A stretch of 64,000 nucleotides of DNA from Halapricum desulfuricans (GTDB lineage: Archaea; Halobacteriota; Halobacteria; Halobacteriales; Haloarculaceae): assembly GCF_017094525.1 (NCBI RefSeq), contig NZ_CP064788.1, positions 62,001 to 126,000 of the forward strand, given 5' to 3'. Below are positions 4,964-64,000 of this stretch, piece by piece. The position numbers were made by a program, and so were the translations under genes. Numbering within the stretch: position 1 is the first letter of the stretch; each line of letters starts with the position of its first letter. The notes under the pieces were generated by a model, which saw nothing but the letters and a program-made list of their open reading frames with translations, was not told the origin of the DNA and did not search any database.

Positions 4964-5871
4964 TGTTCCCCCTCCTCTAAGATGTCCGCGAAGGCTTCTT
5001 GCAGGGTCCCGGCCTCGGACATCGACCGCAGCGAGATATCGTGTTCGACCAACAGCCCCTGCAACCGATTGCGGAGTTCGTCGGCGTCGTCGGTCATCAC
5101 GAGCAGGCGACCGTCCTCAATCTCGACGTTGCGGGCCACCTCGACATCGGCCAGCAGTTCGGCGACGCGCTCGTCGTCGTCGGTTTCGACCGCCAGTGCC
5201 TGCCCGCCGTAGGCCTGCTGGACGGCGTCGATCGTATCGGTAATCACGATTTCGCCGTCCCGAAGGATCGTCACTTTCCCGACGTACTGTTCGAGTTCCG
5301 CGAGCACGTGGCTGCTGACGAACACCGTCATCCCCTGCTCTGGGAGTTCTCGCAGTGCGTCCATAATCTTCTGTCGGCCCGAGGGATCTAGTCCCGTCGT
5401 CGGCTCGTCCAGAATGAGCAACTCGGGTTCGTGGATCATCGCCTGGGCCAGGCTGAGTCGCCGTTGCATCCCGCCACTGTAGGAGCCGACCCGCCGGCCG
5501 GCCGCCTCCTCCAAATCGAGCCACGCCAGGAGTTCGTCGGCCCGTTCGCGTACGTCCGACTTACTCATCCCTGCGGCCCGCCCCATATACTCGAGATAGC
5601 CGCGGCCGGTCATCGACTCCCGCAGCGCCAGTTCCTGCGGGGAGTATCCCAGCAGTTCCTTGGCGGCCTTCGAGCCGGCGGGTTTCCCACCGATGGTCGC
5701 CGCACCCTCTGAGGGGCTCAACAGTCCCACGAGCAGTTGCATCGCGGTCGTCTTGCCGGCGCCGTTGGGTCCGACGAACCCGTGAACGCTTCCCTCTTCG
5801 ACAGTCAGATCGATGCCGTCGACTGCGACCGTCTCGCCGAAGCGCTTTGTCAGATTTGTCGTTTCGATCAT
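4960..5871 (-). CDS. ABC exporter ATP-binding protein
   Basis: The 303-residue protein powers the adjacent ABC-2 permease. Walker A is GPNGAGKTT, the Q-loop region reads LGYSPQELALRESMTGRGYL, the signature is YSGGMQRRLSLAQAM, Walker B is LLILDEPTTGLDPSGR and the H-loop is VSSHVLAELE. After the ABC domain comes a roughly 80-residue acidic C-terminal domain, as in many CcmA/NosF-like ATPases. Its ATG overlaps the stop of the propeller-protein gene and its stop overlaps the permease start, so the three genes are probably made together. Confidence 0.92.
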   Translation of the reverse strand: MIETTNLTKRFGETVAVDGIDLTVEEGSVHGFVGPNGAGKTTAMQLLVGLLSPSEGAATIGGKPAGSKAAKELLGYSPQELALRESMTGRGYLEYMGRAAGMSKSDVRERADELLAWLDLEEAAGRRVGSYSGGMQRRLSLAQAMIHEPELLILDEPTTGLDPSGRQKIMDALRELPEQGMTVFVSSHVLAELEQYVGKVTILRDGEIVITDTIDAVQQAYGGQALAVETDDDERVAELLADVEVARNVEIEDGRLLVMTDDADELRNRLQGLLVEHDISLRSMSEAGTLQEAFADILEEGEQ

Positions 5872-8800
5872 CGCTGCACCCTCCGTCGAACGGCGTTGAC
5901 GATCGGCATGCCGAACAGCCCCAGCACCGAGGCGCCCGCCGCCGCGTACAGCAGGGTATCGGCCATGGAACTGCCCGTTACCGACGGTGTCGTGCTGTCG
6001 TAGACGGTGAACCCGTCCGGACTGGTCGCCGCCACGCTGACGGTGTGCTCGCCGGGCGGCAACCGTACTGTCGTCGACCGGTCGGTCGTGATCGCGACCG
6101 GTTGCTCCCCGACAGTGACCCGCGTGACTCGGTCGCTCCCGTCGTCGAACTCCCAGGACAGCGTCACGTCCGGGCCGCCGCTCGCGTCAAGCGTGACTCC
6201 CGCCGTCGCGTCGACCGTTCGGAGTCCGGCGTCACTGGCAAGTATCCCGACCTCCGAGTCCAATTCGACGAACGATCCGTCGGCGGCGTCCCCGCTGATC
6301 AGGACCTCGCCTTCGCGCGGATCGACGACGTACAGTCGAGCGTCTCCCTCACCAGTGGGGTCCGCGATCACACCGATATTCGGCTCCTCGCCGTCGGCTG
6401 CGGGCAGTCGCTGGACGCGAGTGGCCGGTGCGAGCGGCTCGTCGTCGGGATCGACCGTCTCAAACGGTTCGAGGACGATCCGCTTCAGACGATCACCGCC
6501 CGAAAGCCCGTACAGGTCAACTTTCGCCCCACCTTCGGGGGCCGTCGTCGCGAGTGCGACTGCCTCGGTCCCGTCGACTTCGCCGGCGAGGTCGGCCGGC
6601 CGGTACGCCTCGCCGAAGCCGCCGCGTCGTGACAGATCCTCCTGGTGACGCCACGTCTCTTCGACGCCGTCGGTGACAGAGACAGTGAAGCGATCGCCGT
6701 CGCTCGTGCACGTCACCAACCCGTTCCCTCCATCCGGTGACGGTATCTCTCTGACTGTCGGTGTCACTCTCCCTTCGCTTTCGAACCGTCCAATCACCGC
6801 TCCATCCCCCGGCGAGACGACGACCCACGTCTGCGTGTCTTCCTTCTGGACCAGACACAACACCTCTCTGTAGCCGTCCCCATCCAGGTCTGCTATCGTC
6901 CGGATCGATCCGGAAACGATTCGCTCCCCGTCGGACTCGAACATCGTCGTCTTCTCGAATGTGATGTACTTGTCGCCGTTTTCGGTCTCGCTTCCGGTTT
7001 CGATGACCGCAAACGACACCCGGTTGTCGGCCGAAATCGCGAGCATATCCTCGTACTCGCCGGACCCACCGACACTCACGTACCTGACTCGCTGGCTGTT
7101 CTCGATCGGTGGCCACAGGTCACTCTCGTCGGGACGATATCTCCAGAAGTCGGTCACTGCTTCGTCTCTGAGATTGACGAATGCAACGCCACTGTGCCCG
7201 CCGATGAAGACGACGTTGTCCTCTTCGTCCAGCGTATTGATCGAAACTGGCTCGATCAGGTCAGGTAGCGTCCTGCTACTTTCGACTTCGAGTGGGATCC
7301 GTGCTCGCTCGCTGCCGTCGGTTCCGGTGAGGGCGACGAGTTCAGCCGTCGGTCGACCGCCGAGTTCGTCTAGCTCCGCGAGTAAACTCTGGATCTCGCT
7401 TTGCTTGCTCTGAATCTTGTCGCTGTTGTCGACGTCGTTGTTTCGCTGCTCGCGTTCGAGGTTTCTGATGTCTCGTTCGAGATTTTCTATCTCGCGCTCG
7501 ATCTGGGTGATCTGTTCGTCGTTGCCCTGGCCTGGCCGCTGTTCGATTCCCAGCAAGTCGACCCCGTCGTCGCCGTCGATCACCTGCAGGTTCTGTAGAC
7601 CGCCCTCCCGATGGAACTGCTCGGCTCCGAGCGTTCGCGACCAGACGATCGAGCTGTTCGCCCCGGACCGGACGACGAGCGATCGCGACTCGACGCCGCG
7701 CTGCCGGTCGAGTTGATTTCGCGAGTAGATCAGATAGTCCTCGACCCCATCGCCGGTGAAGTCCGCCTCCAGCACTGTCCCGTCCTGTATCGCGGTGAAA
7801 CTCCAGACGACTTCCGTCCCCTCCTCAATGACCTGTAGGTCCCCGGATTCCGAGGCGACCACGAGATTCCCGCCGTAATCGGCGAGATAGCCCTGCCCGT
7901 CCGCCGAAGCGCGAACCGATCCCGGCGGTGCGGCCGGGATCGTGAGTTCCGCCCCTACCTGTCCGTTCGCGAGACCGAGTTTTGTCACTGTTTGCGTGTC
8001 TCCGTCGGGTGCCGACGGCACGAGCAGACGCTCCGAATCGAATTCGCTCACGAACCAGACGTTACTCGCCCCGGCGAGGTTGATTGACTCGTTCGTCCAT
8101 TCGGTCTCCCCTTCCGCGGTGACAAGCGCTACCTGTCCGGGGTTCTGGTCGGGGGCATACTGCCCTCGTTCGTGGATACTGATCGCGATCCTGTCGCCGT
8201 CGATCGGTGTCACTTCGAGATTGCAGAAGTTCCCGTCTGCCGCCCGATCCGAACCGCCGGCCATCGTCGGCCGATTGCCGATCCGCCGGTAATACGATTC
8301 TAACTCATCGCTGTCGGGCTCGTGAACCTGTGTGTCCCACTTGACTGATCCGTCGTCGGCACGCACGCCTTTCACGTACCCGTCCTCGGTCGTGACGACG
8401 AGGTCGGCGGGTCCGCCTTCGATGGGACGGAGGTCCCACGCCGACCGCGGGATCGATCGCCCGCCACTCTCGAAGGGTTCGGCGAGTCCCGTGACGTACT
8501 GCCTGTCGCCGCTCTCGCCGTCGATAGCCAGCAGCTTCCCGTCTTGGGTGGTCGCATAGACCGTTCCGTCCAGCGCTCGTACTCGCCAGGTGTAGTAATC
8601 CCGATCGACTGTCCAGACCTCTTCGCCGCTCTCGATGTCGAAGCCCACCACGCCGTATCCCGTCGCGACAGCGACGTTGCCGCCGGCTTCGACCGCGTCG
8701 AAAACGGGTACCTGCCGGTCGATCTCCCCGAACTCCTGGCTGAAGATTGTCCGGGTCCGAGCCGCTCGCCACTCGACCTCGCCGCTTGCGAGGTCGATCG

Positions 8801-52061: not shown

Positions 52062-52736
52062 ATGGGCTCCGAGAGTATTTCGGATGAATCATATGGGACG
52101 ACCATGGCGGACGGACCGCCGATCACCGCGACGCTGGCGGTCGAACCCCCGCCGGAGGCCGACTGCGTCGTTGTGAGCGCGACCGATGACGTCGACATTC
52201 AGGACCACAACCTCACGTTCTCGCGGTCCACTGGAAACGGCGACCTCGAGGACGGCACGTGCAATACCAAAGTCGTCGAGGAGGAGGAGGGGGTGTTCTC
52301 CGATCGGTACGTCCGCTCGGACGTGGCGAGTGGCTGTTTCTGTCTCGTCTTCCACGAGGTCGATTGCGTGCCCTCGATCGAGCGCGTCCAGGGCAACCGG
52401 ATCGTCATCTCCGTGCTGTTGCCCGACCGCGAGACGCTTCGGGAACTCGTCAGTCGGCTCCGCGAGGGAGGTTCCAGCGTCGACGTCTACGGCATCACCC
52501 AGTCGAACGTCGAAGGCACCGAATCGATCGTCATGGACGTCACCGACATCACCGACAAACAACGAGAGGCGCTGATGGTCGCCGTCGAGGAGGGGTACTA
52601 CGACACGCCCCGCAACGCGGATCTGGAGGTGCTGGCCGACCGACTCGACATCTCGAAGTCGGCCGTCTCCCAGCGACTCAAGTCGATCGAGTCGAAACTG
52701 ATCCACAAGCTCGTCGACCACTGGTCGATCGACTGA
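52062..52736 (+). CDS. HTH-10 (bacterio-opsin activator type) regulator
   Basis: The 224-residue protein has an N-terminal domain with a Cys pair (ASGCFCLVFHEVDC), then a sensor-like region (RIVISVLLPDRETLRELVSR) and a C-terminal HTH-10 domain: TDKQREALMVAVEEGYYDTP and ADRLDISKSAVSQRLKSIES. It has no receiver or PAS domain. Such proteins control local genes in haloarchaea; the target is unknown. An alternative start is ATG 52104. The upstream 200 bases hold no gene. Confidence 0.85.
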   Translation: MGSESISDESYGTTMADGPPITATLAVEPPPEADCVVVSATDDVDIQDHNLTFSRSTGNGDLEDGTCNTKVVEEEEGVFSDRYVRSDVASGCFCLVFHEVDCVPSIERVQGNRIVISVLLPDRETLRELVSRLREGGSSVDVYGITQSNVEGTESIVMDVTDITDKQREALMVAVEEGYYDTPRNADLEVLADRLDISKSAVSQRLKSIESKLIHKLVDHWSID

Positions 52737-53059: not shown

Positions 53060-53425
53060 ATGGCTGACTCCGACCACCCGCTGTTCGTGACGCTGAAGGT
53101 CGAGGACCGGTCGGCCCTGCAGCACGTCGTCCGTCAGTACTCCCGGCTAGAGTCGGAGGTGAAGATGATCTCGATCGTCGATCCCTCCCGCGAGGACGTC
53201 AATTGCCTGTCGATCGACGTCAGTGACGTCACCGAAAAGCAGTGGGAAGCGCTGGAGGTCGCACACGAACTGGGCCACTACTCGACCCAGCGAGGCGGCA
53301 ACCTCTCGGACATCGCCGACGCGCTCGGCATCTCGAAGTCAGCGGCGTCACAGCGGTTGCGGGCCGCCGAGAGCAAGATCGTCTCCGCGATTCTCGGCGC
53401 GACCCAGATCACGGAGACTGTCTAG
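53060..53425 (+). CDS. short HTH-10 regulator
   Basis: The 121-residue protein starts MADSDHPLFVTLKVEDRSAL and ends in an HTH-10 domain (TEKQWEALEVAHELGHYSTQ, ADALGISKSAASQRLRAAES). It aligns to the second half of the neighbour at 52062 and lacks that protein's N-terminal 110 or so residues. GTG 53051 is an alternative start. The inverted-repeat element just upstream may have replaced an original promoter or 5' part. It may act by itself or be a remnant. Confidence 0.75.
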   Translation: MADSDHPLFVTLKVEDRSALQHVVRQYSRLESEVKMISIVDPSREDVNCLSIDVSDVTEKQWEALEVAHELGHYSTQRGGNLSDIADALGISKSAASQRLRAAESKIVSAILGATQITETV

Positions 53426-53699: not shown

Positions 53700-55133
53700 A
53701 TGGCAGACGATCGACTGTCTTCGGAAGTCAGAGACAGGCTACAGGAACGCCGGGACGAGCAGACGGCCTCGGGCACGCTGGTCGCCAGCGACGAAGAGGC
53801 GTACGTCGGTGACACGATCACGCTGCGCGGGCTCAATCTCCCCGCCGATACGGAGGTCGACGTGATCTGGAAGACCGTCGAGGGGCGGTGGGGCGTCCTG
53901 CAGGCGAACGAGGTCGTCGGCGCGCAGTACCGCCCGCGAACAGTCACAGCGTTCACTGCGAGGACCGACGCGGACGGTCGCTTCGAGCGCGACTGGGAGA
54001 TCCCCGAGGACTACGGCGGCGAGCACACGATCGAACTCCGGACCGACGAGGACGGCCCGCCGCTGGCGAAGACAACTATCGCCATCACGCCGTGGTTCGA
54101 ACTCGACCGCACGGAAGCGCCGCTCGGCGAGTTCTTCACGATCACCGGCTACGGCATCGGCCCGAACGTCCTCGAGAACAACTACCAGATCGCCTGGGAC
54201 AACGGGACGATGGGCTTCATGACCGGCGTGATCAACCGCGGCACGGCGACCGCGCGGGTTCGGGCGGTCGGGCCGGTCGGCTCCCACGAACTGCAGGTCT
54301 GGCGCAACTACCGGGGCGTGCCCTTCCTCCAGAACAACACCCAGTCGCCGTTCGGCGAGGTCGCCGGCGGCCGCCAGTACGCTTGGTCGGTCGAGGTGAC
54401 CGACCCCGAGAGCGAACCGGAGACGGCGTGGGTCGAATCGATGTTCGACGAGGCGCCGCTGCCGGCGCACATGCCCGACCCGGATCGCGAGACCGAGGCC
54501 GAACTGGAGATCTCGCCCCAGTGCGGCCAGCCCGGCACGGACACGGTCCTCACGGGCCGGGGGTTCCCGCCCGAACAGCGCGTCGATCTGGTCTGGCACA
54601 CCCACGAGGGCCACCGTGTGAAGGACATCCCGATCACGCCCGAGCCGGTTCCGGGTGTGCTCCCCTCCGTCGAAACCGACGAGGAGGGGTCCTTCCAGCT
54701 CGAGTTCGAGGTGCCGAAAGACCGCGGCGCGACCCGACCGATCACCGCGATGATCGACGGCGAGTCGGTCGCCGTCACCGGGTTCATGCTCCAGCCCGAG
54801 ATCACCAGCATCGCCCCGACCAGCGGTCCCTCGGGCACGGAGATCGAGATCGCGCTGTCGGGGATCGGCTGGCCCATCTACGAGAACGCCTACTACTTCC
54901 TGTACGACAACAAGCCGCTGGGCTACATCTGCGGGCTTGAGGCCAAGATCAACGAGACGGTGCTGCGGGCGGCCGGCGAGCCGGGCTGGCACTTCATCGA
55001 CGTCTATCCCAGCCTCTTCGACGTGCAGGACGACGAGCCCAACTTCGAGCTGATCCCGCATCTCTCGTATCTCGACAACCACCCCGTCCGGCCCCTGCCG
55101 GGCCTGCACATGGCGTTCGAGATCACCGAATAG
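53700..55133 (+). CDS. multi-domain beta protein (IPT/TIG-like), first gene of the ABC-CoxG operon
   Basis: This 477-residue protein is not one I can name. It has at least three Ig-like repeats in which the words 'TLRG', 'TITGYG', 'VLTGRGFPP' and 'IALSGIGWP' recur at strand ends, followed by Asp/Glu-rich turns. The pattern is that of IPT/TIG domains (EITSIAPTSGPSGTEIEIAL). There is no signal peptide or membrane helix, which is odd for such domains. The permease gene begins 14 bases after its stop. A structural or binding role with the transport system is inferred. Confidence 0.65.
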   Translation: MADDRLSSEVRDRLQERRDEQTASGTLVASDEEAYVGDTITLRGLNLPADTEVDVIWKTVEGRWGVLQANEVVGAQYRPRTVTAFTARTDADGRFERDWEIPEDYGGEHTIELRTDEDGPPLAKTTIAITPWFELDRTEAPLGEFFTITGYGIGPNVLENNYQIAWDNGTMGFMTGVINRGTATARVRAVGPVGSHELQVWRNYRGVPFLQNNTQSPFGEVAGGRQYAWSVEVTDPESEPETAWVESMFDEAPLPAHMPDPDRETEAELEISPQCGQPGTDTVLTGRGFPPEQRVDLVWHTHEGHRVKDIPITPEPVPGVLPSVETDEEGSFQLEFEVPKDRGATRPITAMIDGESVAVTGFMLQPEITSIAPTSGPSGTEIEIALSGIGWPIYENAYYFLYDNKPLGYICGLEAKINETVLRAAGEPGWHFIDVYPSLFDVQDDEPNFELIPHLSYLDNHPVRPLPGLHMAFEITE

Positions 55134-55146
55134 GGCCCACGCCAGC

Positions 55147-55923
55147 ATGCGACGGGACCGACTCTATCAGGCGGGTTCGCTCGCCGTGCCGCTACTCACG
55201 TGGCAGCTAGCGGCGGGTGTGTTCGGGCTCGTCAGTCCCTCGCTGTTGCCGCCGCCGCTGACCATCGTCGAGACGACGGCGACGCTGCTGACACAGGAGG
55301 GGTTTCGTTCGGACGTGCTGGTAACCCTCCAGCGGACGCTCGTCGCCTCGCTGGTCGGGTCGACGCTCGGGACGGTCGTCGGCCTGGCGATGGGCTGGAA
55401 CCCGCACATAAAGGCCGTTCTCTCGCCGCTGGCGGCGGCGATCTTCCCGCTGCCGATGATCGCACTGTTGCCGCTGGTGATCCTGCTGCTCGGGAGCACC
55501 GAGACCGCGCTGGTCGTCACTGCCGGCCTCGGGACCTTCTTCGTGGTGCTGTGGAACGCGATGGACGGGGCAAGCGGGATCGAGAGCGTCCACGTCGACG
55601 TCGCCAGGGACAACGGCGCGACCTCGACCTATCGACTCTTCCGGGAGGTGTTGCTCCCGGGCTCGCTCCCGCTGGTGCTGGTCGGACTGCGCCTCGGGTT
55701 GAGCACCTCGCTTCTGATCGTCGTCGCCGTCGAGCTGGTCGCCGGGGGCAGCGGTCTCGGCAACTTCCTGTGGATCGCCTGGATGTCCTACGACATCACC
55801 GCGCTGTACGCCGGGCTGGTCGTCAGTGCCGTCCTCGGGATCGCCTTCACTTACGGACTCGGCGCGATCGAACGGCGACTCGTCCCCTGGCACGCGGACA
55901 ACCGACGGACTGTCGTCCTGTGA
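55147..55923 (+). CDS. ABC importer permease 1 (SsuC/TauC type)
   Basis: The 258-residue protein has six helices and the cytosolic EAA loop (ARDNGATSTYRLFREVLLPG) that contacts the ATPase. It resembles permeases of the sulfonate/nitrate/taurine importer class. It shares the operon with a second permease of the same kind at 58103, so the channel is probably a heterodimer rather than the usual homodimer. Confidence 0.9.
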   Translation: MRRDRLYQAGSLAVPLLTWQLAAGVFGLVSPSLLPPPLTIVETTATLLTQEGFRSDVLVTLQRTLVASLVGSTLGTVVGLAMGWNPHIKAVLSPLAAAIFPLPMIALLPLVILLLGSTETALVVTAGLGTFFVVLWNAMDGASGIESVHVDVARDNGATSTYRLFREVLLPGSLPLVLVGLRLGLSTSLLIVVAVELVAGGSGLGNFLWIAWMSYDITALYAGLVVSAVLGIAFTYGLGAIERRLVPWHADNRRTVVL

Positions 55924-56007
55924 GGAATCGGCGCTCGGCGACGGGATATAAAACGCCCTGAAATATGAAGCACATGGGTTTCACCGATAGCAGGACAACG
56001 GACAGCT

Positions 56008-57204
56008 ATGGCGGATGGTACGCGGCTAAGCAGATCGAACGGACGAGAACGGAGTACACGTCGCAGGTTTCTGGCGGGGACAAGCGTCGCGGCGGCGGCC
56101 GGCGTCGCCGGCTGTAACGGCCTGCTGGGCTCGAGTGACGAGTCGAACACCGGCCCGGAGACTGTGACGTTCGGGACGCTGACGATTCCGGCCGTGGCCG
56201 AGGTGCTGGTCGCCAAGGATCGGGGCTACTTCGAGGAGCGAGACATCGAACTCGAGGTCGAGCGCATCCAGAGCGCCCAGCGGGCGACGCCACAGCTGGC
56301 CAGCGGCGACCTCGACACGGCGACGGGATCGGTCGGGGCGGGCCTGTTCAACTCGATGGCGCAGGACGTCGAGATCAGCGTCGTCGCCGACCAGACCCAG
56401 TACTGGCGCGGGCAACCCTCCTCGAACAAGGTGTTGATCCGCCCGGAGAAGTACTCCGAGGGGATGACGCTCGCGGACGTCTCGGAGGACTTCACGATCG
56501 CGTTGCACGGCAAGGGGAACGTCGACGCCTACATCTGGGCGCGACTGCTCCAGCGCAATGACATGACCTGGGGCGACGTCCGGACCAGGGAGATCCTCTA
56601 TACGAACATGACGGGCGCGATGTCGGCGGGCGAGATCGACGCCGCCGCCATCCCCGATCCGCTGGGACTGGGGATGGTCAACGAGACGGGCGCAAAGCGG
56701 TTGCTGTACGCTTCGGAGGTCGCCCCGCGGATGCAGATCGGCGTCTACCTGTTCGGCGAGCCGTTCATGCAGGACCGCCCGGAGATCGCGCGCCGGTGGC
56801 TGGAGGCGTACCTGCTCGGCGTCCGCGAATACTACGAACTGGGCGGGTTTCCCAGCGACGAGGTCGCGTCGATCGTCAGCGAGGAGTTCGACCTCCGGAA
56901 GAACCTGATCAAGATGTCGATCCCGTCGCTGCCCCACAAGAACGGACGCCTCAACAGGGAAAGCATCATGAGTCAGCAGGCCTACCATCACTGTCGAGGA
57001 GAGGTCGAAGAGCAGGCCGAGGAATCGGCGATTGTCGACGAATCGCTGCTAGAGGAGGCGCTTGACGACGTTGGCCGACTCGACGATCCCGAACCCGCCG
57101 TCGAGACGATAAACGAGTGGGGACAAACCTCCCCCAAGCCCTACTCGGAACTGGAGACGATCGACGAACCCGAGGGGTTCCCGGCTGACCCGCTGTGTGA
57201 ATGA
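56008..57204 (+). CDS. Tat lipoprotein substrate-binding protein (NMT1/SsuA type)
   Basis: The 398-residue protein starts with a twin-arginine lipoprotein signal: STRRRFLAGTSVAAAAG followed by VAGC, so it is exported folded and anchored by lipid. The binding fold starts FGTLTIPAVAEVLVAKDRGY and continues with EERDIELEVERIQSAQRATP and DIDAAAIPDPLG-like parts. The ligand class (sulfonate, nitrate, thiamine precursor, other small molecule) cannot be told. It ends in a His/Glu-rich and acidic tail. Its stop overlaps the ATPase start (ATGA). Confidence 0.9.
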   Translation: MADGTRLSRSNGRERSTRRRFLAGTSVAAAAGVAGCNGLLGSSDESNTGPETVTFGTLTIPAVAEVLVAKDRGYFEERDIELEVERIQSAQRATPQLASGDLDTATGSVGAGLFNSMAQDVEISVVADQTQYWRGQPSSNKVLIRPEKYSEGMTLADVSEDFTIALHGKGNVDAYIWARLLQRNDMTWGDVRTREILYTNMTGAMSAGEIDAAAIPDPLGLGMVNETGAKRLLYASEVAPRMQIGVYLFGEPFMQDRPEIARRWLEAYLLGVREYYELGGFPSDEVASIVSEEFDLRKNLIKMSIPSLPHKNGRLNRESIMSQQAYHHCRGEVEEQAEESAIVDESLLEEALDDVGRLDDPEPAVETINEWGQTSPKPYSELETIDEPEGFPADPLCE

Positions 57205-58106
57205 GCGACCGATCGATCCGCCCGAGCGCGGCGACAGCCCATCTGAGCGACCAATCCATGGAGCCACCACGAACGTCGACGGACGACGCGGTCGCCGGCA
57301 CCGATACGGAACGTGCCGACAACGAGCGGCCAGTCCGCATCCGCGCGACGGGGATCGAGAAGACCTACACCGGCCGGGACGGCGACGTCCAGGCGCTGTC
57401 GGGGATGGAGCTGGACGTGTACGACAGCGAGTTCTTCTGTCTGCTCGGCCCCTCGGGCTGTGGCAAGTCGACGTTCCTGCGACTGGTCAGCGGCCTGCTC
57501 GAACCCGACGCCGGCGAGATCGAGATCCGGACCGAATCCAACGGCGATCGACCGTCCACCAGCATGGTCTTCCAGGAGAAAGGGATCTTCCCCTGGAAGT
57601 CGGTGCTGGACAACGTCGCGTTCGGCCTGAAGATGCGCGGCGTCGACAGGCAGAAACGCTACGAGATCGCTCGCGAGTATATCGAGAAGGTCAACCTCTC
57701 GGAGTTCGAGAACGCCTATCCCCACCAGCTCTCGGGCGGGATGGCCCAGCGAGTCGGCATCGCTCGCGCGTTCGCCAACGACCCGCAGGTGCTGTTGATG
57801 GACGAACCGTTCGGTGATCTGGACGCCCAGACGAAACGCTACCTCCAGGAGGAGTTGCTCTCGCTGTGGAGCGAGTCCAGAAAGACCGTCGTCTACGTCA
57901 CCCACGACATCGAGGAGGCGATCCAGCTGGGCGATCGACTCGGCGTCATGGGCGCACGTCCCGGTCACGTCAAGGAAATCGTCGACGTCGACCTCGACCG
58001 ACCGCGAACGCGCGGGAACCTCGACATCGCTCGCCTCGAAGAACTACAGACCCGCGTGTGGGACGTGCTGAGCGACGAGGTCCAGCGCACGGTCGAACGA
58101 CGATGA
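57201..58106 (+). CDS. ABC importer ATP-binding protein (SsuB/TauB type)
   Basis: The 301-residue protein has an N-terminal extension of about 45 polar residues, then Walker A GPSGCGKST, Q-loop STSMVFQEKGIFPWKSVLDN, signature LSGGMAQRVGIARAF, Walker B VLLMDEPFGDLDAQTK and switch His in VTHDIEEAIQLGDR. It overlaps the genes on both sides by ATGA. ATG 57258 is a possible later start that would remove part of the extension. Confidence 0.93.
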   Translation: MSDRSIRPSAATAHLSDQSMEPPRTSTDDAVAGTDTERADNERPVRIRATGIEKTYTGRDGDVQALSGMELDVYDSEFFCLLGPSGCGKSTFLRLVSGLLEPDAGEIEIRTESNGDRPSTSMVFQEKGIFPWKSVLDNVAFGLKMRGVDRQKRYEIAREYIEKVNLSEFENAYPHQLSGGMAQRVGIARAFANDPQVLLMDEPFGDLDAQTKRYLQEELLSLWSESRKTVVYVTHDIEEAIQLGDRLGVMGARPGHVKEIVDVDLDRPRTRGNLDIARLEELQTRVWDVLSDEVQRTVERR

Positions 58107-58882
58107 CTCGACTCACCGGCACCCGGATCGTCCGACGGCTCCCGGCGCTGATCGGCCCGTTCGTCGTGCTCGCGCTCGCGTGGGAACTCGCGGCGGGCGT
58201 CATCCTCGATCCTCGGTTTTTCCCGCCCCCCTCCGAGACCCTGCCGCTGGCGGTCGAGCTGTACCTCCACGGTGAGTTCGTCACGCACGCCGCCGCGAGC
58301 GTCCGGCGGATCGTGCTGGCGACGGCGATCGGCGCGAGTGCGGGCATCGCCGTCGGGATCGTCGCCGGCTGGTCCCACCGGGCGCGGCTGCTGGTGAACC
58401 CGCACCTGGCGGTGCTGTACCCGCTCCCGAAGATCGCGCTGTTGCCGGTGATGTTCGCGCTGTTCGGGCTGACCGAGACCGTCCGGATCCTGACGATGGC
58501 GCTGGCGGTGTTCCTGCTGGTCGCGATCAACACGATGGGCGGCGTCCGCTCGATCGAGGACGTCCACGTCGAGGCGGCGCTCGACAACGGCGCTGGCACG
58601 CTCGAGCTCTACCGGGAGGTCATCTTGCCGGGCGCGCGCCCGCAGATCTTCAGCTCGCTCAGCATGGGCTTCAGTGTCGGCTTCGCGCTGCTTGTCGTTA
58701 TCGAGATGCTGGCTGCCGAGTCCGGGCTGGGCTACGTCATCTGGAGCTCCTGGGAGCTGTTCACGATCCCGCGGATGTACGTCGCCGTCTTCTCGATCAA
58801 CGTCCTCGGCGTGCTCTTCGTCCACGGCACCGAGATCGTCGGCGACGTGCTCACGCCCTGGGAAGGAACCTACCAGCCATGA
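58103..58882 (+). CDS. ABC importer permease 2 (SsuC/TauC type)
   Basis: The 259-residue protein has six helices and its EAA loop reads EAALDNGAGTLELYREVILP. It is a diverged paralogue of permease 1. ATG 58103 overlaps the ATPase stop. A 12-codon frame and then the CoxG-like gene follow in the same coupled manner. Confidence 0.9.
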   Translation: MTRLTGTRIVRRLPALIGPFVVLALAWELAAGVILDPRFFPPPSETLPLAVELYLHGEFVTHAAASVRRIVLATAIGASAGIAVGIVAGWSHRARLLVNPHLAVLYPLPKIALLPVMFALFGLTETVRILTMALAVFLLVAINTMGGVRSIEDVHVEAALDNGAGTLELYREVILPGARPQIFSSLSMGFSVGFALLVVIEMLAAESGLGYVIWSSWELFTIPRMYVAVFSINVLGVLFVHGTEIVGDVLTPWEGTYQP

Positions 58883-58917
58883 CGGACGACACCGACGAAC
58901 TGAAGACACAACCATGA
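58879..58917 (+). other. 12-codon frame linking permease 2 and the CoxG-like gene
   Basis: The frame reads MTDDTDELKTQP and stop. Its ATG overlaps the permease stop as ATGA, and its stop overlaps the ATG of the next gene as ATGA. It would let ribosomes step through without release. It may be a coupling device or the former N-terminus of the next gene. Confidence 0.45.
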
Positions 58918-59525
58918 CAGACAACATCGACCAACCGGAGACCGAGGTATCGAGCGCACAGACAGGCGAAGTGAACGAACGGCCGGAGACGAGCGACACA
59001 GGCGACGAGTCGGCGACGGCAGAAACCAGCGCCTCGGAGGTGGCAAGCGAGTCGGACTTCGATGAGGAGGAGGCGCGCCTGGAGTTCTCCGACACCGTCA
59101 CTATCGAGACGGGCAAGGACGATCTCTGGGCGTTTATCTCTCGGGCTGAGAACCTCGCGGAGTGTATCCCGGGCGCGGAATCCGTCGAACGGCTCAGCGA
59201 ACGGCAGTACACCTGCGAGATCACGCGCGGGATCAGCCGCGTGCGAGTCTCGCTGGACGGCGAGTTCGAACTCGTCGAGATGAACGAGCCCGACTGGATC
59301 GTCATGGAGGGCAACGGCTTCGACTCGACGACCGGTAGCGACTTTGACGTCCTCGCCGCCATGGAGATGGACGAACACGACGAGGGCACTAACCTCTCCT
59401 ATTCGGCGGAGCTGTACTACACGGGCGGGGTCGCCCGGCTCGGCGCGCGACTCTTGAGCCGGGTCATCGAAGGCGACATCGAGACGTACTTCCAGAACAT
59501 CAAAGACGAAGTCGAAGCTCAGTAG
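58914..59525 (+). CDS. CoxG/SRPBCC-family protein
   Basis: The 203-residue protein has a 55-residue acidic, disordered N-terminus, then a CoxG-type SRPBCC domain: FSDTVTIETGKDDLWAFISR, NLAECIPGAESVERLSERQY and FQNIKDEVEAQ at the end. CoxG helps aerobic CO dehydrogenase maturation and membrane attachment; other members bind hydrophobic ligands. No Cox/molybdenum hydroxylase gene is in view, so the partner here is unknown. It ends the operon, convergent with the lipoprotein gene 41 bases away. Confidence 0.8.
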   Translation: MTDNIDQPETEVSSAQTGEVNERPETSDTGDESATAETSASEVASESDFDEEEARLEFSDTVTIETGKDDLWAFISRAENLAECIPGAESVERLSERQYTCEITRGISRVRVSLDGEFELVEMNEPDWIVMEGNGFDSTTGSDFDVLAAMEMDEHDEGTNLSYSAELYYTGGVARLGARLLSRVIEGDIETYFQNIKDEVEAQ

Positions 59526-59565: not shown

Positions 59566-60612
59566 CTACGAGCTACCGTCGTCGGAACTCGCGTTCGGGT
59601 TGACGAAGTAGATCGAACCCAGGTAGACGCCGACGTCGTTGAATTCCTCGTCGCCGTTGGTCCCCGAGATCTGCACCTCGTAGGCGTATTCGCCGCTGAG
59701 GTCGTCCGGGATGCTGTCGGCTTTCCAGACGGCGTTCCAGGCGTGGCTTCCCTCCGACCACGAATCGTTGTTCTCGGCACCCCACGCGAGTTCGAGCGTC
59801 GTGTCGATCTCGTCGCTGGGGAAGGTGATCTGTGCGGAATCGACGACCTCGTCGCTCGGGGTCACCATCTCGCCGCTGCTGGCGTGCCAGATGCCGATGT
59901 CGAAGCCGACCGATCCGGTCGAATCGAAGGTGTAATTGGGGTTGCAACTGCTGATGAACTGGCTGTCGCTTCCCGCGTCGCCGAGCGTACTCGTGTGGTA
60001 GGTCTCGGCCGTGACGACGTAGCTGTTGCCCGGATCGTCGTACTCGACGACCTCGAACACGCCCGACGCGATGCCGACGCTGGTGAAGTTACCGTCGTTG
60101 TCAGTGACTTCGACGGTATAGGTCGTCTCGCCGGTCGGCCAGTCGTCGGGGATCTGCTCCCAGACGGGGCCGCTCCACTCTTCGACCGGGTCCTCCTCGG
60201 CGTCACCGCCCCAGGCGAGGTCTTCGGTCGGGCCGCCGTCGATGTTGATCGCGACCGAGATCTCGTCGCTGCCGAGTTGCTCGCCGCTGGGATCGTAGAC
60301 GCCGACCTTGAACACCGGCTCCATCCCGTGGGTGAACGTCCGCGTCCACGAACAGGAGTCGGCGAACCCACCGGCACCGGCGGGATTGTTCCCGGCCGAA
60401 CCGACGAGAATGTCGTCGGTCACGACGTAGTTCTCGGGTTGCGGCTCGGGTGTCTCCGTTTCCGTCGGTTCTTCGGTGTCGGTGTCGTCACCGGGACTCA
60501 ACGCGTTACAGCCCGCCAGTGCGACGGACGCCCAGCCGGCCGCTCCGCCGGCGACGAACTTCCGTCGCGAAACGCCTGTGTCCGATTCAGAATCTGAACG
60601 CTCGGGTGTCAT
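59566..60612 (-). CDS. Tat lipoprotein with two beta repeats
   Basis: The 348-residue protein has a Tat lipoprotein signal, SRRKFVAGGAAGWASVALAG followed by Cys, then a Glu/Thr/Pro linker. Two repeats follow, each starting with YVVT and containing a Ser-Cys (FADSCSWTRTF; FISSCNPNYTF), a VGVYDPSG / IGIWHASSG turn, LAWGG / LAWGAEN and IPDDWP / IPDDLS. I cannot name the domain. ATG 60612 is supported by TATTTATG about 30 bases upstream. It may be a periplasm-side partner of the Fe-S/NrfD genes upstream. Confidence 0.75.
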   Translation of the reverse strand: MTPERSDSESDTGVSRRKFVAGGAAGWASVALAGCNALSPGDDTDTEEPTETETPEPQPENYVVTDDILVGSAGNNPAGAGGFADSCSWTRTFTHGMEPVFKVGVYDPSGEQLGSDEISVAINIDGGPTEDLAWGGDAEEDPVEEWSGPVWEQIPDDWPTGETTYTVEVTDNDGNFTSVGIASGVFEVVEYDDPGNSYVVTAETYHTSTLGDAGSDSQFISSCNPNYTFDSTGSVGFDIGIWHASSGEMVTPSDEVVDSAQITFPSDEIDTTLELAWGAENNDSWSEGSHAWNAVWKADSIPDDLSGEYAYEVQISGTNGDEEFNDVGVYLGSIYFVNPNASSDDGSS

Positions 60613-60795: not shown

Positions 60796-62025
60796 TCAGT
60801 GCAGCGTTCGGTCGACCTCTTCGAGGCCGCGGTCGTCTTTGGTCGTCGGGCCCGGAACGGCCTCCACCTCGACGTCGGAGGGGTCTTCGCCGACGTAGAT
60901 GACGTTCGGATCGGAAGCGTTCTCGCGAAGCACGAACGTCTCGTCAGGGTACTCATCGAGGTACTCCTTGGGGTCGCCCTCCCCGTCCTCGAGTTCGCCG
61001 ACCTTCTGCTGGAGGTACTGTCGCGGCGCGCTCTCGGGGTCGTTCAGGTCGCCGAACTGGATCGCGTCGACCGGGCAGACATCCTCGCAGGCGGTCGTCG
61101 AGCCGTCCTGTTCGTCGTCGAACTCGCGGTGGGCACAGAACGTGCACTTGCTACAGGAGCCGTCCGGTGGCGTCCCGGAGACCCACCGGCCCTGATCGTC
61201 GTATTTCTCGTCCTCGAACTCGGCGGTGACGTCGTCGAGGATCGGCTCGTAGTCCTCGTTGCTCTCGGGGTCGCCGAGGTAATCGGGCGCGCCGTCGTGG
61301 ACGAAGGCGTTGACGTGGTACGGGCAGGCGACCTCGCAGTAGGCACAGCCCAGACAGGTGTCGTAATCACAGAGGACGCGACCGTTCTCGGTCTTGAACC
61401 GGGAGTTGTTCGGACAGACCTCGATGCAGGGCGCGTCGTCACAGTGCATGCACGGGCGCTGGATCGGATCGCACCCGTCCTCCTCGTTGGGGGCCCCCTC
61501 GTATTCCTTGTCCTCGCGCTGGAACCGGAAGACTTCCTGCCAGAAGTGTCCGTCGGGCGTGTTGTTCTCCTCCTTGCAGCCCTGGACACACCGGAGACAC
61601 TTGATGCAGGTCTCGGTGTCGACGACCATGCCCATCTGGACGTCACCGCCGCTCTGGGCGGCCGCAGTGCCGCTACCGGAGACGAGATCGCCGGCCACGC
61701 TGCTGCCCGCGCCGGCTGTCACCGCCCCCGCCGCGAGCGCGCCCGTCGCCTTGAGCATGTCCCGTCGGGAGGACTTGCTCTCGGTCGGCGGGACGCCCGG
61801 CGTGGGCTCGGTGTCCGCCTGTGCGTCGCCCTGCAGGTCGACGCCGAACTCCTCGCGGACGTCGTCGACGTACTTCTCCTCGAAGGCCGCCCGCGAGAGC
61901 TCGCCGTTCGAGACCCGCCGCGCGTCGCGTGCCATCTGCTTGCCGAGTTCGGTGTCGAACTCGACGTGTGCAAGTCGTTCCTCGGCCCGGTCCTCGATGT
62001 CGTCTAGATCGTAGTTGTCGTTCAT
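60796..62025 (-). CDS. Tat-exported four-cluster [4Fe-4S] electron transfer subunit
   Basis: The 409-residue protein resembles DmsB/NrfC/PsrB-type subunits that pass electrons between a membrane anchor and a catalytic subunit. Four Cys groups are present: CIKCLRCVQGC, CMHCDDAPCIEVCP, CLGCAYCEVACP, and CSKCTFC with CEDVCP. A twin-arginine signal (SSRRDMLKATGALAAGAVTA) sits unusually far in, after about 85 acidic residues. That extension would stay in the cytoplasm or be removed. It ends 5 bases before... upstream lies NrfD on the same strand. No molybdoenzyme subunit is in view. Confidence 0.9.
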   Translation of the reverse strand: MNDNYDLDDIEDRAEERLAHVEFDTELGKQMARDARRVSNGELSRAAFEEKYVDDVREEFGVDLQGDAQADTEPTPGVPPTESKSSRRDMLKATGALAAGAVTAGAGSSVAGDLVSGSGTAAAQSGGDVQMGMVVDTETCIKCLRCVQGCKEENNTPDGHFWQEVFRFQREDKEYEGAPNEEDGCDPIQRPCMHCDDAPCIEVCPNNSRFKTENGRVLCDYDTCLGCAYCEVACPYHVNAFVHDGAPDYLGDPESNEDYEPILDDVTAEFEDEKYDDQGRWVSGTPPDGSCSKCTFCAHREFDDEQDGSTTACEDVCPVDAIQFGDLNDPESAPRQYLQQKVGELEDGEGDPKEYLDEYPDETFVLRENASDPNVIYVGEDPSDVEVEAVPGPTTKDDRGLEEVDRTLH

Positions 62026-62030
62026 GGGAA

Positions 62031-63053
62031 TCACACTCCGAACAGCGGCATGTTCAGCGCCGCGTAGATGATCGTCAGCCGAAGCATCAGTCCGCCGAAG
62101 ATGACGAAGCCGAACTTCGTCGCGTAGCCGGCGGTCGCCAGCCGCTCGAGCCGCGGGTTCTCGTGGAGGTCGTAGCGCCACTCTAAGGCGAGTAGCCCGC
62201 CGGAGATCGCAAGCGGCAACAGCAAGCCGGCAGCGACGACCCCGCCCCAGAAGATCAGGTTCCCCTCCGTCAGGAGGTAGGTCTGGGTCTCGACGGCGGT
62301 CGTGTTGCCGTTGACCAGCGTCGCCAACAGCAGGTAGATGACCACCATCTCGGCGACGATGATCACGTCGTCGGCGACGCTGAACATCGTGACGCCGGTG
62401 TCGGTGACGCCTTTGGTGAGCGTCGTCGCGCCCACCGCGGCGGCGATCCCCATCGAGAGCCCGCTGGCGAGGAACAGCGGCGGGAGCCACGTCGCGTCCC
62501 ACATCGGGACGACCTGCGAGGAGGCGCTGAGCAGCAGCGCCGTGTAGACGATCAGCAGGACGCCCACGAGCGCTCCGAAGGCGTTGAGCCCGCGCCGGAC
62601 GCTCTCGCTCGGCCGGGTCACGTCCGCGATCGTGTCGATCTGCTCGGTGACGCTGGACAGTACATCACCGGGAATCGAGAAGCCCCGGTCGGCCCCGAAC
62701 CCGAGCCACAGCGCCTGCAGGATCGAAAGCATCATGAACAGGACGATCACCCAGATGCCGATGGTCATCCACGAGTCGAAGTTCGTGAACAGCCAGAACA
62801 GCAGGACGTGCTGGGGTTCGCCCAGGTGAAACAGCAGGATCGGGCCGCCGATCGCCAGCGCGACCACTCCCAGAACCATCCCCCAGCGAGCCGTCGCCAG
62901 GTACCCTTCCCGTCGGGACGGATCCCGGACGCTCAGGAAGTCCGCAACCGCGCCGGTGACGTATGCGCCGCCTGCGAGTCCACCCAGGAACAGGTAGACA
63001 CCGATCGAGAGGCTCCAGAACTGGCTGGGCAACAGCGGGCTCACGGCCGTCAT
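62031..63053 (-). CDS. nrfD: NrfD/PsrC-type membrane quinol-interacting subunit
   Basis: The 340-residue protein has about eight or nine helices, beginning SQFWSLSIGVYLFLGGLAGG, the usual NrfD N-terminal motif with a Gly-rich quinone-site helix. Other conserved parts are LFHLGEPQHVLLFWLFTNFD and WDATWLPPLFLASGLSMGIA. It binds menaquinol and feeds electrons to, or takes them from, the Fe-S subunit, whose gene starts 5 bases downstream. The promoter is likely within the AT-rich 63054-63235. Confidence 0.92.
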   Translation of the reverse strand: MTAVSPLLPSQFWSLSIGVYLFLGGLAGGAYVTGAVADFLSVRDPSRREGYLATARWGMVLGVVALAIGGPILLFHLGEPQHVLLFWLFTNFDSWMTIGIWVIVLFMMLSILQALWLGFGADRGFSIPGDVLSSVTEQIDTIADVTRPSESVRRGLNAFGALVGVLLIVYTALLLSASSQVVPMWDATWLPPLFLASGLSMGIAAAVGATTLTKGVTDTGVTMFSVADDVIIVAEMVVIYLLLATLVNGNTTAVETQTYLLTEGNLIFWGGVVAAGLLLPLAISGGLLALEWRYDLHENPRLERLATAGYATKFGFVIFGGLMLRLTIIYAALNMPLFGV

Positions 63054-63235: not shown

Positions 63236-64000
63236 TCAGATCTGGTCGGCTTCGTCTTTGACGCCCGTCGTCAGCTCGAAGTCGTCGCGCGGGTAGCCCA
63301 CGCAGGTCAGGACGTAGCCCTCTTCGAGCTGTTCGTCGCTGAGGTACTGGTTGCCGTCGTGTTCGACCAGTTCCGACCCGTCGCCGTCGACCTTGGAGGT
63401 ACACTGTCCGCAGACGCCGACCTCACACTGTTTGGGCAGCTCCCAGCCCTCGTCCTCGCCGGCCTTGAGGAGCGTCTCGTCGCTGGCGACGTCGATCGTG
63501 TCGCCCTGTTCGACGTAATTGATGGCGTAGCTTTCGACTCCACCGGGCGTGGATGTCTCTTCGGGTGTCGGGGTCGTTTCGCCGGCCATGAACGAATCGA
63601 GTTCGTCCTGCTTGCCGGTGGTGAGCGATAACTCGTCTCGGGGCTCGGCGACGCAGGGGAGTACGTATCCGGCCTGAAACTCCGCTTCGCCCATCTCTCC
63701 GTAGCCGACGTCGCCGTGTTCGACCAGCTCTGTCCCGTCCCCGTCGACTGTCGAGGCGCACTGCCCACAGACACCGACCTGACACTGGTAGGGCATATCG
63801 AGATCCGCGTCGAGGCCAGCGTCGAGCAACGTCTCATCGGTCGGCACGTCGAGCGTCGCTTCCTGAACGACGTACTCGATGCTGAAGCTGTCGGGGCCGC
63901 CAGGTGTCGCCGTTCCGTTCGGCGTCGTGTCGTCTGTCGTCTCTTCGACGGCTGTCGGCCCTCCGGGTCGTGGGCCCGTTTCGCTTCCGTCGCCGAGGAT
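63236..64000 (-). CDS. tandem [2Fe-2S] ferredoxin protein, N-terminus beyond window
   Basis: The frame is open to the window edge (at least 254 codons). It contains two plant-type ferredoxin domains. The first has YQCQVGVCGQC and a later Cys in GYVLPCVAEP; the second has KQCEVGVCGQC and GYVLTCVGYPRDDFEL. Each is preceded by a Thr/Pro/Gly linker ending TPGG...Y. Such linkers suggest an extracytoplasmic, perhaps lipid-anchored, protein, but the N-terminus is not visible. It is upstream of the NrfD gene, separated by 182 bases of AT-rich DNA, and likely works in the same electron chain. Confidence 0.85.
   Translation of the reverse strand: MLGDGSETGPRPGGPTAVEETTDDTTPNGTATPGGPDSFSIEYVVQEATLDVPTDETLLDAGLDADLDMPYQCQVGVCGQCASTVDGDGTELVEHGDVGYGEMGEAEFQAGYVLPCVAEPRDELSLTTGKQDELDSFMAGETTPTPEETSTPGGVESYAINYVEQGDTIDVASDETLLKAGEDEGWELPKQCEVGVCGQCTSKVDGDGSELVEHDGNQYLSDEQLEEGYVLTCVGYPRDDFELTTGVKDEADQI

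Follow-up and report, generated by a model that had tools for sequence, protein, structure and literature searches.

A conserved haloarchaeal locus combining an ABC importer, paired Ig-like proteins and an NrfD-type redox operon

Gene content and organisation of the locus

The window analysed here is a stretch of 64,000 nucleotides from Halapricum desulfuricans, part of a 2.89 Mb single-contig haloarchaeal genome. Towards its right end, a six-gene operon on the forward strand (53700–59525) is met by a convergent redox operon on the reverse strand (59566 to about 64174); both belong to one system. The six-gene operon opens with a 477-residue protein (53700–55133; Pfam TIG; hereafter TIG), which contains a duplicated pair of immunoglobulin (Ig)-like domains, no signal and one conserved cysteine (C411); it is 94% identical to its counterpart in Halapricum hydrolyticum, the closest named relative at this locus. 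The following four genes encode an ATP-binding cassette (ABC) importer: a first permease (55147–55923; BPD_transp_1, 68 bits), a substrate-binding lipoprotein of the NMT1/SsuA superfamily (56008–57204; NMT1_2, 52.5 bits; SsuA_fam, 55 bits, below the cut-off of 163.5), a TauB/SsuB-like ATPase (57201–58106; ABC_tran, 106 bits; taurine ATPase model, 223.6 bits, below the cut-off of 357) and a second permease (58103–58882; BPD_transp_1, 62.5 bits). The last gene encodes a CoxG-like SRPBCC protein with an acidic N-terminal extension (58914–59525; PF06240, 86.8 bits against a cut-off of 22.2).

A reading of this DNA made from the sequence alone had proposed the same six genes, and Pfam returned the families it named (BPD_transp_1 twice, NMT1_2/NMT1, ABC_tran, COXG and IPT/TIG). 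Its description of two different permeases was borne out, since they are only 35% identical to each other, as was that of the binding protein as a twin-arginine translocation (Tat) lipoprotein (Tat motif RRRFLAG, lipobox AGC) and of a true CoxG family member at the operon's end. It counted four junctions with ATGA overlaps or fewer than 15 bases; strictly, three of the five qualify. These are the 13-base gap between TIG and permease 1, and the ATGA overlaps of the binding protein with the ATPase and of the ATPase with permease 2. The binding protein follows permease 1 after 84 bases, while the 31-base gap between permease 2 and CoxG can be counted only through a 12-codon mini-ORF (open reading frame) that spans it (58879–58917), with ATGA at each end. 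In the close relative L035, the same ATG overlaps the stop codon of permease 2 and opens a reading frame that continues into CoxG; compared with this arrangement, the N-terminal extension of CoxG is interrupted in the present genome.

The sequence-only reading had drawn the six genes correctly but missed both the convergent operon and two upstream regulators. The convergent operon comprises a Tat lipoprotein with two Ig-like repeats (59566–60612; hereafter LIPO), each with one conserved cysteine in the alignment of relatives (C87 and C223); a Tat-type 4Fe-4S polyferredoxin with a Ferredoxin_N domain identified by Pfam (60796–62025; FES4), which is DsrO/NrfC-like (DsrO, 139.8 bits against a cut-off of 200); an NrfD/PsrC-type membrane subunit (62031–63053; PF03916, 108 bits); and a Tat lipoprotein that carries a pair of plant-type [2Fe-2S] ferredoxin domains (63236–64000; FES2; Fer2, 77 bits in two stretches; fdx_plant over its cut-off). 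FES2 runs beyond the window to about 64174, and its complete ORF is found at 5237–6175 of the extended locus L003. FES4 matched TAT_signal in the Pfam scan, and the soluble carriers of this operon all bear Tat signals by sequence reading. Upstream of the six-gene operon, on the forward strand, lie a DmsR-N/HTH_10 regulator (52062–52736; HTH_10, 70.6 bits; DmsR_N, 38.4 bits), which keeps this position in its own genus and in genomes G001 and G007, and a short HTH_10 regulator (53060–53425; 59.9 bits), whose upstream position is also conserved.

Each part of the locus was compared with known systems. The NMT1-type binding protein, SsuB/TauB-type ATPase and BPD permeases belong to the same superfamily as the parts of SsuABC and TauABC importers. 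However, the curated taurine, sulfonate and nitrate models all scored below cut-off for the importer parts, the specific models far below; moreover, there are always two distinct permeases, with TIG, LIPO and CoxG genes alongside. Against solved structures, the binding-protein profile gave only generic NMT1-type matches. The redox operon resembles PsrBC, DsrOP and NrfCD modules in possessing both the NrfD subunit and the Tat 4Fe-4S subunit of a Psr/Dsr-type complex, but it contains no molybdopterin catalytic subunit, it additionally encodes one lipoprotein with two [2Fe-2S] domains and another with Ig-like repeats, and the DsrO cut-off was not reached. CoxG matched the solved structure 2pcs, and belongs to the same Pfam family as the CoxG that anchors carbon monoxide (CO) dehydrogenase (cited in PMC11962113) and the CoxG-like protein that anchors glycerol-3-phosphate dehydrogenase to the membrane in Sulfolobus acidocaldarius (PMC11962113); here its neighbours are instead the genes of an ABC importer and of an Ig-like lipoprotein, and no dehydrogenase adjoins it in this genome.

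Co-occurrence and modular splitting in haloarchaea

Conservation was assessed across 391 genomes of the class Halobacteria. TIG was present at full length in 24 of these, plus one fragment match, and LIPO at full length in 24, its other matches being weak and limited to its N-terminal region. The two sets of genomes were identical (Fisher's exact test, ignoring kinship, p about 8e-39), and spanned four of the sampled families (f1, f2, f4 and f7). CoxG was found at 23 of the 24 TIG/LIPO loci and adjoined LIPO at 21. Strong matches to the binding protein occurred in 14 genomes, every one of them TIG-positive; a weaker match was seen in the TIG-negative genome G218 and a weak one in G216. Both permease types, one of each, were present in all 14 and also in G218, so that the permease pair is consistently heteromeric. 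The sequence-only reading, which took the genes for one system, would have been contradicted if TIG and CoxG had parted from the ABC genes in other genomes; this was not observed. A search for TIG across the phylum returned, outside the class, only generic TIG-repeat proteins. TIG and LIPO distances were moderately correlated (0.48), a value obtained without control for the species tree and not used as evidence.

The NrfD module accompanied FES4 and LIPO in 10 of the 14 genomes with the binding protein. The order of the parts varied across several taxonomic families, and in two genomes of one genus (G317 and G359) they were split into three separate clusters: TIG-CoxG-LIPO; binding protein-ATPase-two permeases-Mrp; and LIPO-FES2-FES4-NrfD, the last again without a molybdopterin catalytic subunit. 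In other genomes, unlike these two, the parts are joined. The Mrp gene, which follows the binding-protein importer genes in both genomes (L105 3246–4292 in G317), encodes an Mrp/NUBPL-type Fe-S carrier ATPase that was also seen in molybdoenzyme operons of G267.

TIG and LIPO as partners

The Pfam assignment of TIG is marginal (22.0 bits against a cut-off of 20.9), and 20 of 21 relatives matched the family at E up to 0.1. By hhalign, its N- and C-terminal halves are homologous to each other (99.5%), and the same holds for the two repeats of LIPO (100%). C411 is the sole conserved cysteine of TIG, retained in 33 of 34 sequences, and a conserved cysteine was present in every full LIPO repeat listed. 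The profile of TIG produced only marginal matches to solved structures (E = 0.024), and LIPO no convincing one.

A counterpart of the pair was identified on a plasmid of Deinococcus sp. D7000 (L122 19377–21359; HLB42_19035 and HLB42_19030; P0001 and P0002), where two uncharacterised proteins of 160 and 475 residues are encoded in tandem. The smaller matched one LIPO repeat (hhalign, 94.8%, E = 5e-8) and the larger matched TIG (27.9% identity over 95%, E = 7e-41). Each contains a single cysteine, and these align with the conserved cysteine of the LIPO repeat and with C411 of TIG. This was the one record that plasmid searches with TIG produced; those with LIPO itself produced none. The Deinococcus pair differs from the haloarchaeal pair in that both proteins have signal-like N-terminal segments, and in that no CoxG or NrfD-type redox genes adjoin it. 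Two uncharacterised families occur in exactly the same genomes, recur as a bacterial pair and have one invariant cysteine each. On the reading preferred below, TIG and LIPO are obligate partners; the direct prediction is that they bind one another, perhaps through a disulfide.

The absence of a signal from TIG, claimed by the sequence-only reading, holds for haloarchaea, where none of 33 sequences had an N-terminal hydrophobic segment, but not for the Deinococcus homologue, whose N-terminal hydrophobic segment is typical of signal peptides. It is inferred that TIG functions beyond the membrane and that its export occurs together with LIPO. In SoxYZ, SoxZ has no signal and travels with Tat-exported SoxY, whose conserved cysteine lies on a C-terminal GGCGG arm. 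The likeness is one of analogy only: both cases would involve two beta-sandwich partners, only one of which has a Tat signal, and a conserved cysteine, but scans of TIG and LIPO members gave no sequence match to SoxYZ, the cysteine is placed elsewhere, and TIG and LIPO are internally duplicated.

A TIG paralogue with 59% identity is present elsewhere in the same genome (G000:C1:1733481-1734905; L057), ahead of genes for an O-methyltransferase and for a small protein resembling a PaaI-type thioesterase. It has no LIPO or CoxG nearby, and this layout is repeated in three other genomes of the genus.

Proposed function and alternatives

Clues to the substrate came from the neighbours of TIG paralogues in relatives. 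These included DoxX-like proteins (12 loci), signal-less NMT1-fold or Pht5-like proteins, flavin-reductase-domain proteins, O-methyltransferases, UbiD, an isochorismatase-family hydrolase and an amidohydrolase; the Pht5-like proteins are presumably of that family, their Pfam matches being limited to weak ones with NMT1 or phosphonate-binding models. Beside TIG paralogues in G160 and G164 lies a molybdenum hydroxylase of the xanthine-dehydrogenase type (with XdhC and MocA-like genes in G164), and the G267 locus runs on into a molybdopterin oxidoreductase operon. These neighbours favour an aromatic or heteroaromatic acid as the leading guess for the substrate, short of proof. For the aromatic substrate of the sequence-only reading, the backing is no more than circumstantial, coming from the UbiD, Pht5-like, O-methyltransferase and isochorismatase-family genes of relatives.

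In G218 (L107 8145–18274), divergent versions of the binding protein and of the two permeases are accompanied by a hydrolase of the isochorismatase family (biuret amidohydrolase/RutB-like), an aldolase resembling DapA, what is probably an aldehyde dehydrogenase, and subunits of the aconitase family; this cluster is possibly catabolic, and could reveal the class of ligand.

The reading we prefer, with a probability of roughly 0.4, is an importer whose ligand is handled by TIG and LIPO and which is coupled to quinone-linked electron transfer, in a conserved and regulated system that would connect uptake with redox chemistry at and outside the membrane. The NMT1/SsuA-family binding lipoprotein would feed the ABC importer with its two different permeases, the imported ligand most likely being an aromatic or heteroaromatic carboxylic acid or a quinone-like compound. 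By analogy with SoxZ, signal-less TIG may be exported by riding on LIPO, a Tat substrate, and the two would probably be joined outside the membrane via their single conserved cysteines, either by a disulfide between the two proteins or by sharing a thiol site. NrfD, FES4 and FES2 would pass electrons, in one direction or the other, between the quinone pool and the extracytoplasmic TIG-LIPO pair or its ligand, while CoxG, on the cytoplasmic face, may anchor an oxidoreductase or handle a hydrophobic or quinone ligand. A bolder form is doubtful: that TIG and LIPO are an undescribed two-protein, thiol-linked carrier of archaea and bacteria, presenting a ligand between an extracytoplasmic, quinone-driven electron chain and the ABC importer, in a redox-coupled uptake without known counterpart.

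Several observations weigh against the preferred reading. The passage of TIG through the Tat system on LIPO and the disulfide are themselves inferred, only one bacterial TIG-LIPO pair was found, and AlphaFold models of TIG and LIPO, built from two-sequence alignments, were of unusable quality (pLDDT 41 in each case). In four of the 14 genomes with the binding protein, the NrfD module is missing and DoxX and flavin-reductase genes are present instead. No catabolic gene or organic-substrate oxidoreductase gene adjoins the operon. Halodesulfurarchaeum formicicum HSR6 (G007) is an anaerobe that respires sulfur with formate or hydrogen and is supplied with yeast extract. Its genome contains the entire block, with just one additional gene within it, for an O-methyltransferase, and lacks catabolic neighbours; the paper describing that genome does not mention aromatics. 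A link to a molybdenum enzyme, which the sequence-only reading had raised as a possibility, was seen in relatives (G160, G164 and G267) but not here: PF02738 (molybdenum hydroxylase) is absent from this genome, which has six PF00384 matches, so the gene for any molybdenum partner would lie away from this locus.

The remaining probability is shared among other explanations, including some not listed here. Foremost of these, although unlikely, is an anaerobic sulfur-compound system that imports an organosulfur substrate (a sulfonate, thiosulfonate or similar), with TIG-LIPO as a SoxYZ-analogous thiol carrier and electrons from a PsrBC/DsrOP-like chain. The taurine/sulfonate type of the ATPase and permease scores, the DsrO-like FES4, the DmsR-type regulator, the DoxX/DoxD-like neighbours, the single conserved cysteines of TIG and of each LIPO repeat, and the presence of the block in a sulfur respirer are all consistent with it. 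However, no SoxY, SoxZ, rhodanese or sulfonate-cleaving domain was detected among the members scanned, the taurine and sulfonate models fell well short of cut-off, the cysteines are not on a SoxY-like arm, and the UbiD and molybdenum-hydroxylase neighbours fit poorly.

Also unlikely, and ranked next, is extracellular electron transfer by a quinone-like or other redox shuttle, which NrfD, FES4 and FES2 would reduce outside the cell, the ABC importer would recover, and CoxG and TIG-LIPO would bind. The Tat signals on the soluble electron carriers would suit such a role, as would a module that has no catalytic molybdenum subunit even where it stands alone (G317 and G359), and the neighbouring O-methyltransferases could act on quinones; but no shuttle-making gene is linked, and the NrfD module is missing from some genomes that have the binding protein.

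It is very improbable that this is an ordinary SsuABC/TauABC-type importer whose unrelated neighbours are conserved by chance. Its ABC parts do come from a common superfamily, but the idea is already contradicted by the coincidence of TIG and LIPO in 24 genomes and the restriction of strong binding-protein matches to these, and by the reassembly of the parts in differing orders in several taxonomic families. Least probable of all is a direct link through CoxG to aerobic CO oxidation or another CO dehydrogenase-like enzyme, which the CoxG family score and the XdhA-type operons with CoxG in G160 and G164 might suggest, but which was rejected for this genome since PF02738 is absent and the G160 enzyme scored best as XdhA rather than CoxL, CoxL-type motifs having been searched for in the G160 and G164 enzymes and found absent.

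In agreement with the sequence-only reading, no description of this gene set was found in the literature (open-licence papers). The importer and the NrfD module are of known kinds; it is their conserved union with TIG, LIPO and CoxG that is undescribed in the papers searched. On the preferred reading, the locus would link import with electron transfer outside the cytoplasm. This would extend to an anaerobic sulfur respirer, for which assignment of the electron-transfer repertoire is still in progress.

Two further features of the surrounding DNA were observed. Directly past FES2, to the right of the window (L003 6412–13000), lie a tRNA-Leu gene, one ORF resembling an integrase and others resembling transposases, which places the redox operon at the edge of an integrated element. 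Within the window, G-C content falls to 51–53% between 32000 and 36000, compared with about 64% around it, which suggests foreign DNA.

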